DNA of 40,765 bases from a virus: IMG/VR virus record IMGVR_UViG_3300020201_000047, positions 1-40,765 of that record; one strand, 5' to 3'. Position 1 is the stretch's first letter. Every line of letters starts with the position of its first letter. The notes under the pieces were generated by a model. It was not told the DNA's origin. It saw only the letters and a program-made list of their open reading frames with translations, and ran no database searches. Of this stretch, positions 3,340 to 8,628 are shown in pieces. The position numbers were made by a program, and so were the translations under genes.

Positions 3340-3525
3340 TCAGCTCATCCCCGCCAACCGCTCCACCAGCGCCCGCAGTTGCGCGTCCCGAATCTCGCTC
3401 GCGCCCGCCAGCCACCGGCGCACCGTGCGCTCGTTGACGCGCACCAGAGCGGCCCATCGCCGCGCCGACAGGCCACTGTGGGAGATGGCCTGTCGGATTA
3501 ATTCGGCGTCAGTCACGTGGGTCAT
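3340..3525 (-). CDS. mini helix-turn-helix protein at operon end
   Basis: This 61-residue protein is essentially one helix-turn-helix: LIRQAISHSGLSARRWAALV, then VNERTVRRWLAG and a final helix LRALVERLAGM. The NERxxRxWLxG recognition-helix signature recurs in two other small proteins of this zone (3999-4511 and 6341-6553). It starts three bases after the stop of the zinc-ribbon gene, in the same operon. It is probably a DNA-binding regulator of its own or a neighbouring operon; this is inference. Confidence 0.75.
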   Translation of the reverse strand: MTHVTDAELIRQAISHSGLSARRWAALVRVNERTVRRWLAGASEIRDAQLRALVERLAGMS

Positions 3526-3528
3526 GAC

Positions 3529-3900
3529 CTACGCCTCGCAATCGTCGCAGTGGCCGCGCAAGGTCGTGTCGCGGTGATCGCCACAGCGTGGGCACGTGAA
3601 CCGCGGCGCGGGCGTAACCGGGCGAGGCGGACACACGGCGGGTGCCAGTCGAATCATTTGATTCCAATCTGTCCCGGTCTGCACCTGCCGCCCGGCCACC
3701 AGTGCGGCGATCACCTCGTCTAGGCCCCACGCCGGGCCAGTCGGCTGCCCCTGTGCCGGGATACCCAGCAACGCGAAGACCCGCGCGCTCTCACGGACGG
3801 CGCAGCCCAAGTACGCGGCCACGTGACACTCTTCTACGTCGGTAAAATTGCCTGCGCTCATCCTGCGCTGGAGCGAGAGGATCTCTGTCGTCGCGGTCAT
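3529..3900 (-). CDS. small protein with C-terminal zinc ribbon
   Basis: The ATG at 3900 is preceded by GGAG within the CGGAGACGACA leader that recurs before another operon of this zone. The 123-residue product is helical, with conserved-looking aromatic residues (WGLDEVIAAL, TDWNQMIRLA). It ends in a treble-clef/ribbon pattern CPRC-x11-CDDC (Cys 103, 106, 118, 121) that should bind zinc. It is first in a two-gene operon whose second gene is a mini HTH regulator. The family is not recognised; nucleic-acid or protein binding is likely from the zinc ribbon. Confidence 0.75.
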   Translation of the reverse strand: MTATTEILSLQRRMSAGNFTDVEECHVAAYLGCAVRESARVFALLGIPAQGQPTGPAWGLDEVIAALVAGRQVQTGTDWNQMIRLAPAVCPPRPVTPAPRFTCPRCGDHRDTTLRGHCDDCEA

Positions 3901-3919
3901 TGTCGTCTCCGTCCGTGCC

Positions 3920-3933
3920 GGGCTGGATTGCCC
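3920..3933 (-). other. leader hairpin before zinc-ribbon operon
   Basis: GGGC, a six-base loop and GCCC fold as a short stem in the 5' leader, shortly upstream of the GGAG ribosome site. Similar GGC-rich stems precede the ribosome sites of the other three accessory operons. Confidence 0.5.
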
Positions 3934-3943
3934 TGACACCATA

Positions 3944-3972
3944 TATCTAACGGGTAGGGCATTCGCTGTCAA
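3944..3972 (-). promoter_or_regulatory. sigma-70 promoter of the 3340-3900 operon
   Basis: TTGACA (3972-3967), a 17-base spacer and TAGATA (3949-3944) on the minus strand. This gives a perfect -35 and a -10 with two differences from TATAAT. It lies about 45 bases before the zinc-ribbon gene and reads only that operon. Confidence 0.8.
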
Positions 3973-3998
3973 GGCCTCACCCGAAAATACCTGCGCGC

Positions 3999-4511
3999 CT
4001 ACTCGACACGCTCGCGCCCGTCCACTCGGCGCCGCATCACCACCGCGATTTCGTCCGGTGCGAGCGCGAGCGTCCGTTCGCCATCCGCGACGTCCAGCCG
4101 GACCACGCGGGCGACCTGCTCCACCCGACTGGCGGGGATCTCGGCCGGTACCCCCTCCGGCCCCGGCAGCCAGTCCCGGAGCGAGCGCTGCCCGATCCCG
4201 AGGTAATCGGCGAGCGCATTTTTGCCGATGCCTGCCGCGGCCAATAGCTCGGTCAAGCGCTGGTGCGTCTCCGGCCACACGGCGGGGCGCGGGCCGCCAG
4301 CGGCTGCCTCGGCCAGCACCTCGCGCTCGGCGTCGCTCCACTCGGCCTGCGAGTCCCGCAGGGCCTGCGCGGCTACGCGGGCCACACGCTGAGCGACAAT
4401 CGGCGACCCGGCCTCAATCGCGCGCATCGCCTTGAGCGCGCCGTCCAGAGCCGCCGGGGATTTCCCGGCGACGAGCTGGAGGAGGGAGCGGTGCAATTCC
4501 GAGTCGGTCAC
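3999..4511 (-). CDS. helix-turn-helix regulator, 170 residues
   Basis: A GTG overlaps the stop of the upstream gene (GTGA). The N-terminal 75 residues are an alanine-rich helical region that may be a dimerisation or partner-binding part. Residues 84-117 (RLTELLAAAGIGKNALADYL, then GIGQRSLRDWLPG) are a helix-turn-helix with the same SLRDWL recognition helix as the 6341-6553 protein. The stretch after it (RVEQVARVVRLDVADGE) also matches that protein. It is the last gene of the operon that begins at 5287. A transcriptional role is inferred. Confidence 0.75.
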   Translation of the reverse strand: MTDSELHRSLLQLVAGKSPAALDGALKAMRAIEAGSPIVAQRVARVAAQALRDSQAEWSDAEREVLAEAAAGGPRPAVWPETHQRLTELLAAAGIGKNALADYLGIGQRSLRDWLPGPEGVPAEIPASRVEQVARVVRLDVADGERTLALAPDEIAVVMRRRVDGRERVE

Positions 4512-5287
4512 GTGGCGGCCGTCGACACCCACACGGTCACGACGTCGTAGCCGCTGGCGCGATCGGACGCGACGTCTTGCGGCGAGACATACCGCCACGT
4601 GCCCTCGCCGTCACGGTAGGCGGGGACGGCTCCGGTCGGCGCGGCGGCCTTACTTTCGTCCGCCAGCGTAGCGCTGCACGTGCCCGGCAGGACGCGGCCC
4701 GTGTCGTAGTCGATGACGGTGGCCACGCGCGCCACGAGCCCGGCACGGGTTGCGAACTGCTCCGCGTCGGCCCGCGTCGAAAACGTGACGTACTCGCTGC
4801 CGTTCGTCGGCTCACCACTCTCGGCGTAGGCGAGCACATAGACGCCTGCGTCGAGGCGGAAAAACACCTGCTCGCCCTTGGTGATCGCGCCGTTGCTGTT
4901 GTGCACGGTGTGGGTCGCGGTCAGTATCTGTGATTCGCCGAGCGCGTAGAACGTCAGGGCGGGCGCCTTCTCGTCCTCTTCGTCTTCTTCGTCTTCCTCG
5001 TCTTCCTCGTCTTCTTCGTCCGACCACGGGTAGTCGATCGCAAGCTGCATCCACACACGTCCGACGATTTCACGCAATTCGACGATTCGCTGGTCATCTA
5101 CTGGGGACCCGTCCGCCAGCCGGGCCGACACACTGTTCAGCGAGCCGCTGACAATGTGCAGCTCGGCGTCAGGGTAGGCCGCCTGTAGGGCTGCGACGTA
5201 GCGCGACGCCGCGGCGTCATTGGTGAGGCTGGTAAGATTCGCAGCGTCGTGGCTGCTGACGAAAATCTGGGCGATTGGCTCTTGCAT
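4508..5287 (-). CDS. hypothetical protein with acidic DEE-repeat linker
   Basis: The ATG at 5287 follows the same CGGAGACGACA-type leader as the 3529-3900 gene. The 259-residue protein has two folded parts joined by a very acidic linker, SDEEDEEDEEDEEDEEDEK, at about residues 89-107. The N-terminal half is mixed alpha/beta (AQIFVSSHDAANL, AELHIVSGSLNSVSARLADG). The C-terminal half is beta-rich (TFYALGESQIL, YVLAYAESGE, YDVVTVWV). It has no signal peptide or membrane segment. Such acidic tracts can mimic DNA or bind basic proteins, so an anti-host or anti-restriction role is possible but untested. Confidence 0.75.
   Translation of the reverse strand: MQEPIAQIFVSSHDAANLTSLTNDAAASRYVAALQAAYPDAELHIVSGSLNSVSARLADGSPVDDQRIVELREIVGRVWMQLAIDYPWSDEEDEEDEEDEEDEEDEKAPALTFYALGESQILTATHTVHNSNGAITKGEQVFFRLDAGVYVLAYAESGEPTNGSEYVTFSTRADAEQFATRAGLVARVATVIDYDTGRVLPGTCSATLADESKAAAPTGAVPAYRDGEGTWRYVSPQDVASDRASGYDVVTVWVSTAAT
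4971..5020 (-). repeat. 9-bp tandem coding repeat (Asp-Glu-Glu units)
   Basis: About five copies of a 9-bp unit (GAC GAR GAR in frame) encode the acidic linker. Third-position differences between units show that it is not freshly expanded. Copy-number change would stay in frame and only alter linker length. Confidence 0.75.
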
Positions 5288-5298
5288 TTGTCGTCTCC

Positions 5299-5340
5299 GG
5301 CCGGTGCGGCCTTGAGGGTGGCGTCGGCAGCGGTGCGCTG
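5299..5340 (-). other. leader with two hairpins before the acidic-linker operon
   Basis: Reading the transcript, CAGCG-cac-CGCTG (5340-5328) is followed by GGCC-gcacc-GGCC (5311-5299), immediately before the GGAG ribosome site. The layout parallels the two-hairpin leaders of the plus-strand operons at 5568 and 6635, though the sequences differ. Confidence 0.5.
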
Positions 5341-5353
5341 CTTGACTTGAGGT

Positions 5354-5382
5354 AATGTAGGCGCGTACGCCGCTAATAGCAA
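5354..5382 (-). promoter_or_regulatory. sigma-70 promoter of the 3999-5287 operon
   Basis: TTGCTA (5382-5377), a 17-base spacer and TACATT (5359-5354) on the minus strand. It is about 65 bases before the gene start and is divergent from the plus-strand promoter at 5536. Confidence 0.65.
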
Positions 5383-5407
5383 GGGGCGCCGCAAAGATAG
5401 CTATGCA

Positions 5408-5454
5408 ACCCGCGCGTGCATATGCATTATTGCTAATGCACGCGTTTCCCGGTC
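5408..5454. repeat. dispersed repeat R1, copy 1 (47 bp, with nested inverted repeats)
   Basis: Identical to 7930-7976. It contains a 9-bp inverted repeat (CGCGTGCAT at 5413, ATGCACGCG at 5436) enclosing a second one (TGCATTA-TTGC-TAATGCA, 5423-5440). It lies between the divergent promoters at 5354 and 5536 and overlaps repeat R2 by four bases. It may be a regulator binding site or a recombination remnant. Confidence 0.85.
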
Positions 5455-5499
5455 AGGTCGGTACGACCAGTCGGCTCGCGGCGTACTCCAGAGCCACCG
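5451..5499. repeat. dispersed repeat R2, copy 1 (49 bp)
   Basis: Identical to 8566-8614. It contains GGTCG-GTA-CGACC and a looser GGCTC/GAGCC inverted repeat. Here it is fused directly to R1, whereas the right-hand copies of R1 and R2 are separated by 589 bp. The rest of this 337-bp non-coding stretch holds the two divergent promoters and their leaders. Confidence 0.85.
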
Positions 5500-5535
5500 G
5501 GTCCAAACATTTCCGAAATATTTACGATTCCCCCA

Positions 5536-5564
5536 TTGCGGAATACATGCCACCGATGTATACT
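5536..5564 (+). promoter_or_regulatory. sigma-70 promoter, copy 1 of a duplicated promoter/leader
   Basis: TTGCGG, a 17-base spacer and TATACT. The block from 5519 to 5551 is identical to 6586-6618, and the -10 with the downstream TCTGGTGTGGGGCAA is also conserved. Confidence 0.85.
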
Positions 5565-5567
5565 TCT

Positions 5568-5613
5568 GGTGTGGGGCAAATGACCCTACACCACCCCTCA
5601 CAGGGCACCGCCC
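5568..5613 (+). other. two-hairpin 5' leader, copy 1
   Basis: The first stem pairs GGTGTGGGG (5568-5576) with CCCTACACC (5584-5592), with one G-U pair. The second is GGGC-ACC-GCCC (5603-5613), placed directly before the GGAG ribosome site at 5614. Both stems persist in the second copy despite base changes, including a G-U that moves position. This suggests selection on RNA structure. Confidence 0.65.
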
Positions 5614-5624
5614 GGAGACGACCA

Positions 5625-6020
5625 GTGATTGCACTACGGTATGAGCACCCGACCAATGGGCAGTACAACGAGACAGTCGCGGTCCTGCCGGGCGAGCGCC
5701 GGGTGGTCGTGAACACGCAGTACCGAGCGGTATTGCCGGTTGGCGGACACATCCCAACGGTGGGCGCCCTCTTTGATGCGCACCGGACTGGCTGTCCGCA
5801 GCTGATCGTGATGGGCGGCCGTTGCACCTGCGCCGCAAACGCGGATATCATGGCCAGCGCAGGCGATTTGGTCGCCGAGGCCCGCCCGCACGGTAAATTC
5901 GGCGCCGCGCCGCGCGCCGTGCCGCTCGAGGTTCCGGCCACGGTCCCACCTACAGCGATCGGCTGGTGCGACCGCTGCGACTCGTACTGTTACGGCGACT
6001 GCACGGCGAGCGAGGCCTAG
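5625..6020 (+). CDS. cysteine-rich accessory protein
   Basis: The GTG at 5625 lies seven bases after GGAG, the same spacing as in the duplicated leader at 6681-6692, so it was preferred over the longer frame that reads through the promoter. The 131-residue product has an N-terminal beta-rich half (NETVAVLPGERRVVVNTQYRAV), a CPQL...GGRCTC segment (Cys 57, 67, 69), and a C-terminal WCDRCDSYCYGDC cluster (Cys 115, 118, 122, 126) that should bind a metal. It is first of three genes ending in a mini HTH gene. Function unknown. Confidence 0.7.
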   Translation: MIALRYEHPTNGQYNETVAVLPGERRVVVNTQYRAVLPVGGHIPTVGALFDAHRTGCPQLIVMGGRCTCAANADIMASAGDLVAEARPHGKFGAAPRAVPLEVPATVPPTAIGWCDRCDSYCYGDCTASEA

Positions 6021-6023
6021 GCG

Positions 6024-6344
6024 ATGGGCTCCAATTGCATTATCGACATGGACAACGGCATCATTGTGCTGCAGTTAACGGACGCCGTGGGCCGCCAGTA
6101 CCAACACAGCTACAACGGTCAAAGTGCGCAGTTGGCGTACGACGTGCGCGAGGCGCTCAAGCCCACGCTTGATCTGCGCGAGTGGGACGGCGATGAGACC
6201 GAGGATGACGGGTGGGTCGAGGTCGAGGATTGGATGGCCGCTTACGATATCGCGGACGTGGCAGCGATGAGCGCAAGCGACGCCGAGTCGATTGGGAGTG
6301 GCGCACTAATCGCGCTGGTCCGAGCGTTGACGACCGGCGCGTGA
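6024..6344 (+). CDS. acidic hypothetical protein
   Basis: The ATG follows the previous stop by three bases. The 106-residue protein opens with short strands (CIIDMDNGIIVLQLTD, QYQHSYNGQSAQLAYDV). It has an acidic centre (WDGDETEDDGWVEVEDW) and a C-terminal helix. Its stop overlaps the next GTG start (GTGA). No family was recognised. Its small size, acidity and early-type promoter fit an accessory or inhibitor protein, but that is only a guess. Confidence 0.7.
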   Translation: MGSNCIIDMDNGIIVLQLTDAVGRQYQHSYNGQSAQLAYDVREALKPTLDLREWDGDETEDDGWVEVEDWMAAYDIADVAAMSASDAESIGSGALIALVRALTTGA

Positions 6345-6553
6345 CCGACCCCCGCGCCCAGCTCTCGGCCCTCCACCTGCAATCCGGCCTCTCGCTCCGC
6401 GAATTCGCGCGGCGAGTGATGGGCCGAAATGAGCGATCCCTGCGCGATTGGCTCGGCGGCCGACCGATGCCCGCGGATCAAGCGGCCTGGGTCGCGCGCG
6501 TGGCGTCCGTCGACGTGACCGATACCACGATTACCGTCCGCGTCGCGCGCTAG
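6341..6553 (+). CDS. mini helix-turn-helix protein at operon end
   Basis: The GTG start overlaps the previous stop. The 70-residue product contains LSLREFARRV, then MGRNERSLRDWLGG (HTH, about 17-40), and a tail VARVASVDVTDTTITVRV. The recognition helix and the tail resemble those of the 170-residue regulator at 3999-4511, so the two probably share ancestry. It is the third and last gene of the operon driven from 5536. It may repress its own promoter or the duplicated one at 6603, whose -35 lies 50 bases downstream of the stop. Confidence 0.75.
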   Translation: MTDPRAQLSALHLQSGLSLREFARRVMGRNERSLRDWLGGRPMPADQAAWVARVASVDVTDTTITVRVAR

Positions 6554-6562
6554 CGAAGCCGC

Positions 6563-6583
6563 TATGCACGCGGTTCGTGCATA
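6563..6583. promoter_or_regulatory. inverted repeat upstream of the second duplicated promoter
   Basis: TATGCACG-CGGTT-CGTGCATA, with perfect 8-bp arms, ends 20 bases before the -35 box at 6603. The half-site (GTGCAT/ATGCAC) also makes up the inverted repeats of R1, so one regulator may bind both places. Confidence 0.6.
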
Positions 6584-6602
6584 TGTATTTACGATTCCCC
6601 CA

Positions 6603-6631
6603 TTGCGGAATACATGCCGCTGGTGTATACT
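6603..6631 (+). promoter_or_regulatory. sigma-70 promoter, copy 2 of the duplicated promoter/leader
   Basis: TTGCGG, a 17-base spacer and TATACT, with both boxes and spacer length the same as at 5536. The spacers differ at only a few bases near the -10. Confidence 0.85.
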
Positions 6632-6634
6632 TCT

Positions 6635-6680
6635 GGTGTGGGGCAACCGGCTCCACACCACCACTCACAGGGCTTCGCCC
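6635..6680 (+). other. two-hairpin 5' leader, copy 2
   Basis: GGTGTGGGGC (6635-6644) pairs with GCTCCACACC (6650-6659) around a five-base loop, followed by GGGC-TTC-GCCC (6670-6680) and GGAG. Loop sequences differ from copy 1 while the stems are kept. Confidence 0.65.
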
Positions 6681-6691
6681 GGAGATAGCAA

Positions 6692-6961
6692 ATGACACAG
6701 ACCACGAAACTCACCGTCAACCAAGCGATCGTCATCCAAGCGATCGAACGCGCAAACACCCTACTGGCGATCACGGGCGACGGCTACGCACACGCAAAAA
6801 CACTCGCGGAAATTATCGCGCGCCACGAAGGCACGCGCCGTGCATTGCATCGGTACGCAAACGGCATTGTGCGGGTTGGCATTTACGACAAGTCCGGCGC
6901 GCTGATCGCGGATTTTCACGGGACGGAGTCGGATCTCCACATCGCCTCCGGAGAGGGCTGA
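6692..6961 (+). CDS. small hypothetical protein
   Basis: The ATG lies seven bases after GGAG. The 89-residue product has a helical first half (VNQAIVIQAIERANTLLAI, AKTLAEIIARHEGTRRALHRY) and a beta end (GIVRVGIYDKSGALIADFHG). No motif of known function was seen. It is first in the operon with the PLD-like and P27-like genes, so it may act with them or be an unrelated cargo gene. Confidence 0.7.
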   Translation: MTQTTKLTVNQAIVIQAIERANTLLAITGDGYAHAKTLAEIIARHEGTRRALHRYANGIVRVGIYDKSGALIADFHGTESDLHIASGEG

Positions 6962-6964
6962 GCC

Positions 6965-7594
6965 GTGGGCGTCCCATCAGCCATTACCACGCGCCGACAA
7001 CGCGCCGTCGAAAGTTTTCAGACCGCTGCGGAATGCATCGGCACGATTGAACCGGGCGCCTCGCTATTTGCGATCACGCGCGGCCAATTCTCCATGATCG
7101 ACGCTATTCTCGCCTGCCTCGACCAAACGGGGCCGGCGCACGTCTCGCTCTGGACCTGGACCATCGCGGAATATGAAATCGAGTGCATGGAGCGGCTGCA
7201 GAACGATGGCCGGCTGACCGGCGGCACGCTCGTCATTGATCACGGGGTGCGCAGGGTGCGCAAAAACGAAATCATCAAACAGTGGCAAGAAAATTTCGGA
7301 CCCGACTCCGTGCGCTACGTCGTGAATCACTCGAAAATCGCCACGATTGAAAACGAACGATTCCGGTTACTGTTGCGTGGCTCGATGAACCTCAATTTTA
7401 ATCCGCGATTCGAACAATTCGACCTGACCGAAGGTGGCGCCGATTTCGATCTGGTGAAACGCATCGAGGGCGAGCTGCCGATCCTCCCGCACTCCGTGAG
7501 CGGGGAAGACGTCTACAAGGCCAGCAAAGTCGCGAACGCCTTCGCGCCCGAGCAACTCGCCATGTTTTCGGGGGCGAAAGTATGGGCAAAATAG
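6965..7594 (+). CDS. phospholipase D-superfamily nuclease-like protein
   Basis: The GTG start follows a GGAGAGGG ribosome site. The 209-residue protein has one HxK motif, NHSKIATIEN at about residues 121-130, followed by RGSMNLNFNPRFEQFD (138-153). This is the H-x-K-x4-(D/E)...G-S-x-N layout of the PLD superfamily. The usual Asp of the HKD motif is replaced by Glu or Asn. A single motif suggests it works as a dimer, as in Nuc-type nucleases. It overlaps the P27-like gene by 13 bases, so the two products probably act together on phage or host DNA. Nuclease activity is inferred. Confidence 0.75.
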   Translation: MGVPSAITTRRQRAVESFQTAAECIGTIEPGASLFAITRGQFSMIDAILACLDQTGPAHVSLWTWTIAEYEIECMERLQNDGRLTGGTLVIDHGVRRVRKNEIIKQWQENFGPDSVRYVVNHSKIATIENERFRLLLRGSMNLNFNPRFEQFDLTEGGADFDLVKRIEGELPILPHSVSGEDVYKASKVANAFAPEQLAMFSGAKVWAK

Positions 7595-7854
7595 ACATTC
7601 TGGCGGAGCTGCAAAAAGACAACCTCCACGCGTCCGCGATCGCGCTCAAAGTGTTTGCCGACGCGCTCGGCGTGTACGAGGAGGCGTCCCGCAATGTCGC
7701 GCAACACGGGGCGATCGTGATGCACCCGCGCACGGGCGCCCCCATGGAAAATCCGTACCTGAAAATACAGACCGCAAAAGGGGCGGTTATTGCAAAAATG
7801 CGGACAATAGAAGCGAAGCGGGTCCTTGTGCTGCTCCAGCGCGAACCCGTGTAA
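7582..7854 (+). CDS. P27-family-like terminase small subunit homologue
   Basis: This 90-residue protein reads ILAELQKDNLHASAIALKVFADALGVYEEASRNV, then GAIVMHPRTGAPMENPYLKIQTAK. That resembles the core of P27-type small terminases: a helix pair, the G-x-x-x-x-H/N-P-x-x-G-x-x-x-x-N-P loop and a following helix. It is shorter than usual (commonly 120-150 residues). It sits about 32 kb from the large terminase, which has its own small-subunit-like partner. It is translationally coupled to the PLD-like gene. It may be a specialised DNA-binding partner of that nuclease rather than a packaging protein; family assignment is from memory. Confidence 0.65.
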   Translation: MGKIDILAELQKDNLHASAIALKVFADALGVYEEASRNVAQHGAIVMHPRTGAPMENPYLKIQTAKGAVIAKMRTIEAKRVLVLLQREPV

Positions 7855-7871: not shown

Positions 7872-8147
7872 CTACGCTCCTTCTACGCTCAAAAATCTGC
7901 CCCCTGTAGGGCACAACACTTGAGGTAATACCCGCGCGTGCATATGCATTATTGCTAATGCACGCGTTTCCCGGTCCCCTTGGTACACCATCACGATACC
8001 ACCCGGATTGGTCCGCTGCCATTCGCGCGTGTAGCGTCTGGCTCGTTCGGACTTGCCCGGCGTCCGATTGCCGACCATCAGCAGGCCGCGTGATTCCTGG
8101 ATGCTGGCCTTCCGCCGCTTCGCGCGGCGGGCTTGGCGGGCGGTCAT
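7872..8147 (-). CDS. basic hypothetical protein, 3' end altered by repeat R1
   Basis: The ATG overlaps the stop of the upstream gene (ATGA). The 91-residue product has a very basic N-terminus (MTARQARRAKRRKAS), then RTPGKSERARRYTREWQRTN. Its residues from about 58 to 73 (DRETRALAIMHMHARV) are encoded by repeat R1. The same peptide is encoded by R1 copy 1, where no such gene exists. The natural C-terminus may therefore have been replaced by repeat insertion or recombination. It is the last gene of the long minus-strand late operon. Function unknown. Confidence 0.55.
   Translation of the reverse strand: MTARQARRAKRRKASIQESRGLLMVGNRTPGKSERARRYTREWQRTNPGGIVMVYQGDRETRALAIMHMHARVLPQVLCPTGGRFLSVEGA
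7930..7976. repeat. dispersed repeat R1, copy 2
   Basis: 47 bp identical to 5408-5454, including the nested inverted repeats. Here it lies inside the 3' part of a minus-strand gene. Confidence 0.85.
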
Positions 8148-8565: not shown

Positions 8566-8614
8566 GGTCAGGTCGGTACGACCAGTCGGCTCGCGGCGTA
8601 CTCCAGAGCCACCG
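8566..8614. repeat. dispersed repeat R2, copy 2
   Basis: 49 bp identical to 5451-5499, in the gap between two minus-strand genes. It is preceded by an extra GGTCA, giving a short GGTCA-GGTCA-GGTCG run. Confidence 0.85.
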
Positions 8615-8628
8615 CGACCCGCACGGCG

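Follow-up and report, generated by a model that had tools for sequence, protein, structure and literature searches.

Small phage operons closed by mini-HTH genes: candidate autorepressed counter-defence cassettes with a leader RNA

Why would a phage close several short operons, each with its own small helix-turn-helix (HTH) gene? The question is raised by an uncultured virus of bacteria, known from an IMG/VR record of 40,765 bases (~64% GC), the whole of which is referred to below as the window. Its minus strand carries tailed-phage packaging and structural genes, and three operons, at 3900-3340 and 5287-3999 on the minus strand and at 5625-6553 on the plus strand, are each closed by a small HTH gene. 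A comparable arrangement is known from anti-CRISPR (acr) loci: Aca proteins are mostly HTHs of 60-65 aa encoded downstream of acr genes, and they repress through a core-promoter inverted repeat, predicted for every Aca family and in some cases accompanied by a second similar one (PMC9410906, PMC8434428).

Organization of the three operons

The gene lengths and order given in a preliminary description of this DNA, which had proposed three operons ending in a mini-HTH gene, were confirmed. The order is c1-h1 in operon 1, c2-h2 in operon 2, and c3-c3b-h3 in operon 3, and all seven genes have a gene-like GC content by codon position:

3529-3900, minus strand: c1, cargo gene of 123 aa with C-terminal CxxC pairs, no family
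3340-3525, minus strand: h1, mini-HTH of 61 aa
3906-3910, minus strand: ribosome site GGAGA of c1, read from the sequence
4508-5287, minus strand: c2, acidic cargo gene of 259 aa (pI 4.2, net charge -29) with EED repeats, no family
3999-4511, minus strand: h2, 170 aa, an N-terminal domain and a C-terminal mini-HTH
5625-6020, plus strand: c3, Cys-rich cargo gene of 131 aa with a GTG start, no family
6024-6344, plus strand: c3b, acidic cargo gene of 106 aa (pI 4.05), no family
6341-6553, plus strand: h3, mini-HTH of 70 aa with a C-terminal beta-hairpin

The HTH genes h2 (start 4511) and h3 (start 6341) each overlap the preceding gene by a 4-nt GTGA, and h1 starts 3 nt past c1, with an alternative GTG start at 3516. 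The GGAGA ribosome sites described earlier are present ahead of the first gene in all three operons (c1, c2, and c3). Likewise, the SLRDWL and VARVxxxDVxD motifs attributed to two of the HTHs are common to h2 and h3, and the TVRRWLAG of the third was found in h1. An in-genome search identified h2 and h3 as paralogues (40% identity, E 5.5e-6). h1 is a member of the same broader family; it matches the A2 profile, of which it is itself a member, with an E of 1.1e-22.

Two local features accompany these genes. A tandem repeat at 4970-5020 encodes the EED-type acidic run of c2. Between c2 and c3, the pieces 5408-5464 and 5451-5504 are 93-96% identical to 7930-7986 and 8566-8619, respectively, in two genes on the minus strand (near 7.9 and 8.6 kb), a pattern that would fit copying of DNA from one site to another.

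The HTH family in other phages

The family was sought with profile searches and with a pattern matching DNA that encodes [ND]ERTVRRWL. Relatives of the window HTHs were found in about 40 distinct phage loci, some on contigs binned as Gemmatimonadota. Unrelated phages thus have the layout in common, and the cargo is hypervariable; the preliminary description had proposed looking for the same HTH with other cargo genes. Most genomes carry one copy, while the window genome carries three; one relative (locus L062) has both domains of h2. The same gene order occurs in the annotated phages Pan3, EPP-1, BUCT541, and Aval (the HTH gene is unannotated in Aval). More direct searches returned little: a single-sequence search of IMG/VR with h3, c1, and c3 gave no direct relatives, tblastn of h1, h2, and h3 against the annotated phages gave no match, and, in a search of 200 genomes from the same phylum as a Gemmatimonadota MAG, the HTH profile matched only the two already known. 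Relatives of this phage's major capsid protein were found, but without the HTH genes.

The position of the HTH gene was compared with that of other small genes of the same loci. Operon position and overlap played no part in the choice of loci, which were found via the HTH itself. The next gene lies on the opposite strand in 20 of 40 loci, compared with 44 of 234 other small genes (p=5.6e-5); when a gap of 100 nt or more is accepted as an alternative, the fractions are 29/40 and 86/234 (p=2.5e-5). HTH genes also overlap the gene before them somewhat more often (19/42 versus 66/234, p=0.024).

These results bear on the reading that the HTH genes encode ordinary phage decision regulators, similar to Cro or CII, and follow small genes only incidentally. 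The weak matches of h1 to phage repressor families would suit such a role. Nevertheless, the last-gene bias exceeds that of other small genes, three copies reside in a single genome, relatives have dyads in the operon's own promoter (see below), and no CI-type protease domain lies next to the HTH; we therefore regard it as decidedly improbable.

We also compared the HTHs with Aca families, as proposed earlier. The AlphaFold2 prediction for h3 (pLDDT 95.9) comprises four helices and a beta-hairpin. By profile, the nearest solved structure is Aca1 (E 0.007, a marginal sequence similarity), and the nearest PDB folds to h3 are Aca2 entries (Foldseek probability 0.93, E 0.26). That these are the nearest structures favors an Aca-like reading; the weakness of both matches, for a fold as widespread as the HTH, counts against it.

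Promoters and inverted repeats

All three operons have a -35/-10 pair with a 17-nt spacer. In a 9-of-12 consensus scan, however, none of these promoters qualifies, so that the "strong promoter" noted earlier is weaker than stated. The promoter elements, read from the sequence, and the candidate operators are:

3967-3972, minus strand: P(c1) -35, TTGACA
3944-3949, minus strand: P(c1) -10, TAGATA
3926-3964, minus strand: P(c1) inverted repeat GAATGCCCT-N21-AGGGCAATC around the -10, candidate operator
5377-5382, minus strand: P(c2) -35, TTGCTA
5354-5359, minus strand: P(c2) -10, TACATT
5358-5375, minus strand: P(c2) spacer dyad TAGCGGCGTACGCGCCTA, 82% complementary, candidate operator
5536-5541, plus strand: P(c3) -35, TTGCGG
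5559-5564, plus strand: P(c3) -10, TATACT
5543-5561, plus strand: P(c3) spacer dyad ATACAT-N7-ATGTAT, candidate operator
5402-5422, no strand assigned: dyad TATGCA-N9-TGCATA, 19 nt upstream of the P(c2) -35
6563-6583, no strand assigned: second TATGCA-N9-TGCATA dyad, 19 nt upstream of the P(d1) -35, P(d1) being the promoter of a fourth operon

In the window, all three promoters have imperfect core-promoter inverted repeats; these are clear in many relatives, in which a dyad lies within the -35/-10 spacer or over the -10. Examples are AGGGCAATTGCCCT-ATACT (L068), AGGGCATATGCCCT-ATATT (L076), CGGGCATATGCCCG-TATAT (L058), ATGTCCTACATTACGGACAT (L201), TAGGGCCAATGGCCCTA (L218), and TGGGGGCATATGCCCCCA (L267). 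The mean dyad score was 5.09, compared with 4.10 for shuffled sequences, with the highest replicate mean no greater than 4.64. Among the matches listed from a leader-first scan (see below), promoters of operons with an HTH gene scored higher than those of HTH-negative matches (p=0.014). Moreover, HTH similarity correlates with promoter similarity (Mantel p=0.0015, pairs below 75% identity), a correlation to which common descent of whole cassettes could contribute.

Two observations count against autorepression through these repeats: several promoters of HTH-containing operons lack a clear dyad, and the spacer dyads of operons 2 and 3 in the window are either imperfect or without counterpart in relatives. 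The right arm of the P(c1) inverted repeat is also the core of the RNA leader described below, and the P(c3) spacer dyad is nearly preserved in P(d1). The dyad TATGCA-N9-TGCATA, with exactly two occurrences, before P(c2) and P(d1), is an activator-like candidate site.

A fourth operon behind a promoter copy

The preliminary description had missed that the c3 promoter-leader recurs ahead of another operon:

6586-6685, plus strand: second copy of the c3 promoter-leader (89%), in front of d1
6692-7854, plus strand: fourth operon, d1-d2-d3, without an HTH gene at its end

The first gene, d1, encodes 89 aa. It is followed by d2 (6965-7591), a PLD-type endonuclease (phrog_16945, 9e-32) situated between d1 and d3, which is TerS-like (Terminase_4, 1e-5). 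This operon has the promoter-leader yet no HTH gene, an arrangement that counts against the reading as autorepressed cassettes.

A structured leader RNA

Each of the three operons begins with a leader that is predicted to fold:

3913-3941, minus strand: class-I leader of operon 1, with an outer stem, a bulged A, and GGGC-AAUCCA-GCCC, recognized by its fold, its match to model R1, and family covariation
5299-5311, minus strand: operon 2 leader hairpin GGCCG-CAC-CGGCC (z -2.64), then GGAGA
5567-5593, plus strand: operon 3 leader hairpin 1, whose stem in the second copy differs by pair-keeping changes
5603-5618, plus strand: operon 3 leader hairpin 2, GGGC-ACC-GCCC and GGAGA, class II

The hairpins reported earlier for c1, c2, and c3 all recur here, that of c3 as UGGUGUGGGG...CCCUACACCA together with GGGC-ACC-GCCC; the covariation of the leader and its sharing among phages go beyond that observation. 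The sequence GGGCNNNGCCCGGAG occurs twice in the window, against 0.02 expected. Class-I leaders consist of an outer stem, a bulged A, and a GGGC/GCCC stem with a six-base AAUCNN loop, located before the ribosome site, while class II is defined as GGGC-NNN-GCCC-GGAG and is found before operon 3 and d1, and also in L062, L117, and L192. The operon 1 leader matches R1 with 37.1 bits (E 2.9e-6), its row having been in the training set.

We scanned IMG/VR for AGGGCAATCNNGCCCG, blind to HTH genes, and obtained at least 80 loci with at least 78 distinct matches. Among the matches listed, an HTH gene lies downstream in 19 of the 27 that form the outer stem, compared with 2 of the 51 that do not (p=5e-10), and none has an opposite-strand HTH within 3 kb. 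Leaders with an HTH gene have 81% of their outer-stem cells paired, compared with ~40% in the rest of the matches listed. Class-I covariation was 0.386, compared with 0.104 (sd 0.024) in shuffles, which overstate significance since the leader sequences are partly related, and with at most 0.096 in slid controls, which retain that relatedness. In Rfam 15, the leader reaches no model, the sole match being a tRNA elsewhere in L233. R1 gave one weak match on the annotated relatives, indicating that their leader sequence differs.

As an alternative to control by the HTH, the leader may be a passive or host-read element of phage early operons, such as an mRNA stabilizer or a ribosome stand-by site, with the HTH acting on DNA only; we consider this a serious contender, if short of probable. 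The RNA core AGGGCAAU is constant while the DNA dyads vary by HTH class, which counts against dual control by the HTH in that it argues against one surface recognizing both, and some leaders have no HTH gene in their own operon (d1, and extra copies in L114). On the other hand, the linkage between leader and HTH is strong, and in one subgroup (L064 and L068) the DNA half-site AGGGCAAT recurs in the RNA core. A general host leader was rejected, as R1 matched, among 149 bacterial genomes, only the one already known to hold the motif.

In one phage (L179, L114), four class-I leaders lie inside 2.7 kb, and a single regulator may therefore serve several operons. R1 also matches weakly, at 18.6-20.8 bits, in four capsid relatives of the window phage (L003-L006), each time ~305 nt upstream of the capsid gene.

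Cargo genes

The window cargo c1, c2, c3, and c3b gave no recognized family and no match to a known anti-CRISPR. Among 50 cargo proteins compared, relatedness is limited to a single pair, and three have a clear named family: an ArdC anti-restriction protein with a metallopeptidase domain (L267, 6e-35), a P22 Gp17-like superinfection exclusion protein (L131, 1.5e-27), and an HD metal-dependent phosphohydrolase (PHROGs match). A PADLOC search gave weak matches only. Anti-defence types thus account for 2/50, thin support for a counter-defence role. Acidity was rejected as a mark of DNA mimicry, the cargo being just slightly more acidic than background (p=0.04).

The cargo also speaks to the toxin-antitoxin option of the preliminary description, in which the second gene would be an antitoxin-type HTH. 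Overlapping gene pairs with an HTH second gene fit this reading, HigA2 antitoxin is among the weak fold matches, and weak matches include Xre-type antitoxin models. However, no toxin family was detected in the 50 cargo proteins (Pfam, PHROGs, PADLOC), modules hold one to five unrelated cargo genes, and similar regulators are paired with unrelated cargo; for these reasons, we judge it unlikely. HigBA-type systems share the HTH second gene and autorepression (here proposed), but differ from the present modules, in which no toxin was found and cargo number and identity vary.

Proposed mechanism and relation to known systems

We consider it probable that the three operons are cargo cassettes of the anti-CRISPR/Aca kind under autorepression, most likely with counter-defence cargo and with added control at the RNA level. 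The earlier interpretation is partly supported. Its self-regulated acr-aca-like modules find good support in the last-gene position, the promoter dyads of relatives, the tracking of promoters by HTHs, Aca1 and Aca2 as nearest structures, and the ArdC and Gp17-like cargo elsewhere, while counter-defence remains a candidate role for the window cargo. When naked phage DNA enters the cell, the promoter would fire immediately and produce a burst of cargo. The last gene, its translation coupled to that of the cargo, would yield a small HTH dimer, whose binding to the core-promoter dyad would switch the operon off. At the stem-loop before the ribosome site, translation is probably damped as well, either by the HTH protein, in the manner reported for Aca2, or by another factor, given that in one subgroup the AGGGCAAU core matches the half-site of the DNA operator. 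The cargo would be freely exchanged among phages, and c1, c2, c3, and c3b may serve counter-defence.

By analogy, the cassettes may act as acr-aca operons (Aca1-Aca10) do, with which they share small cargo first, a 60-70 aa HTH gene last, and a core-promoter inverted repeat (clear here in many relatives, imperfect in the window), sometimes with a second similar repeat (PMC9410906, PMC8434428). They differ in that the cargo of the window and its relatives includes no known acr, in the marginal similarity to Aca1 given above, and in the leader RNA family, which is absent from those descriptions (PMC9410906, PMC8434428). In archaeal viruses, anti-defence genes have conserved early regulatory sequences, and a common promoter signature likewise marks many small anti-defence genes that are unrelated to one another; these are archaeal viruses and promoters, and the abstract mentions neither a mini-HTH nor an RNA hairpin (PMC11065993).

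A closer parallel may exist for the RNA. The class-I leader, including that of operon 1, is a covarying stem-loop beside the cargo ribosome site, the arrangement expected of Aca2-type control. Aca2 of phage ZF40 is reportedly an RNA- and DNA-binding HTH (Birkholz, 2024), said to act on a promoter dyad and on a stem-loop of related sequence adjoining the ribosome site. The systems would thus share an HTH regulator, a promoter dyad, and a stem-loop with related sequence, but Aca2 has a long C-terminal dimerization domain, whereas most of the HTHs here span 56-72 aa and have no more than a beta-hairpin, and binding of the leader RNA is for them a candidate function.

More tentatively, and as a possibility we would not call likely, a previously undescribed, phage-only leader RNA may mark a large class of interchangeable counter-defence cassettes among phages infecting Gemmatimonadota and other hosts. 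In each cassette, a minimal HTH would control transcription (at the -10 dyad) and translation (at the bulged-A hairpin); the leader could then serve as bait for anti-defence genes yet to be recognized. Such genes are small, fast-evolving, and poorly reachable by homology, and a conserved frame of leader and mini-HTH around hypervariable cargo would expose them via their control region, even in phages without known relatives. Should a 60-residue HTH indeed recognize DNA as well as RNA, it would be very small for a dual regulator. The idea is testable in cultured phages with the same layout (Edwardsiella EPP-1 and Klebsiella BUCT541). The cultured Klebsiella and Edwardsiella phages at loci L319 and L318 have this layout with a differently spelled leader hairpin, and their spacers contain the palindromes TTCCGATTATCGGAA and TTCCTAAATTTAGGAA.
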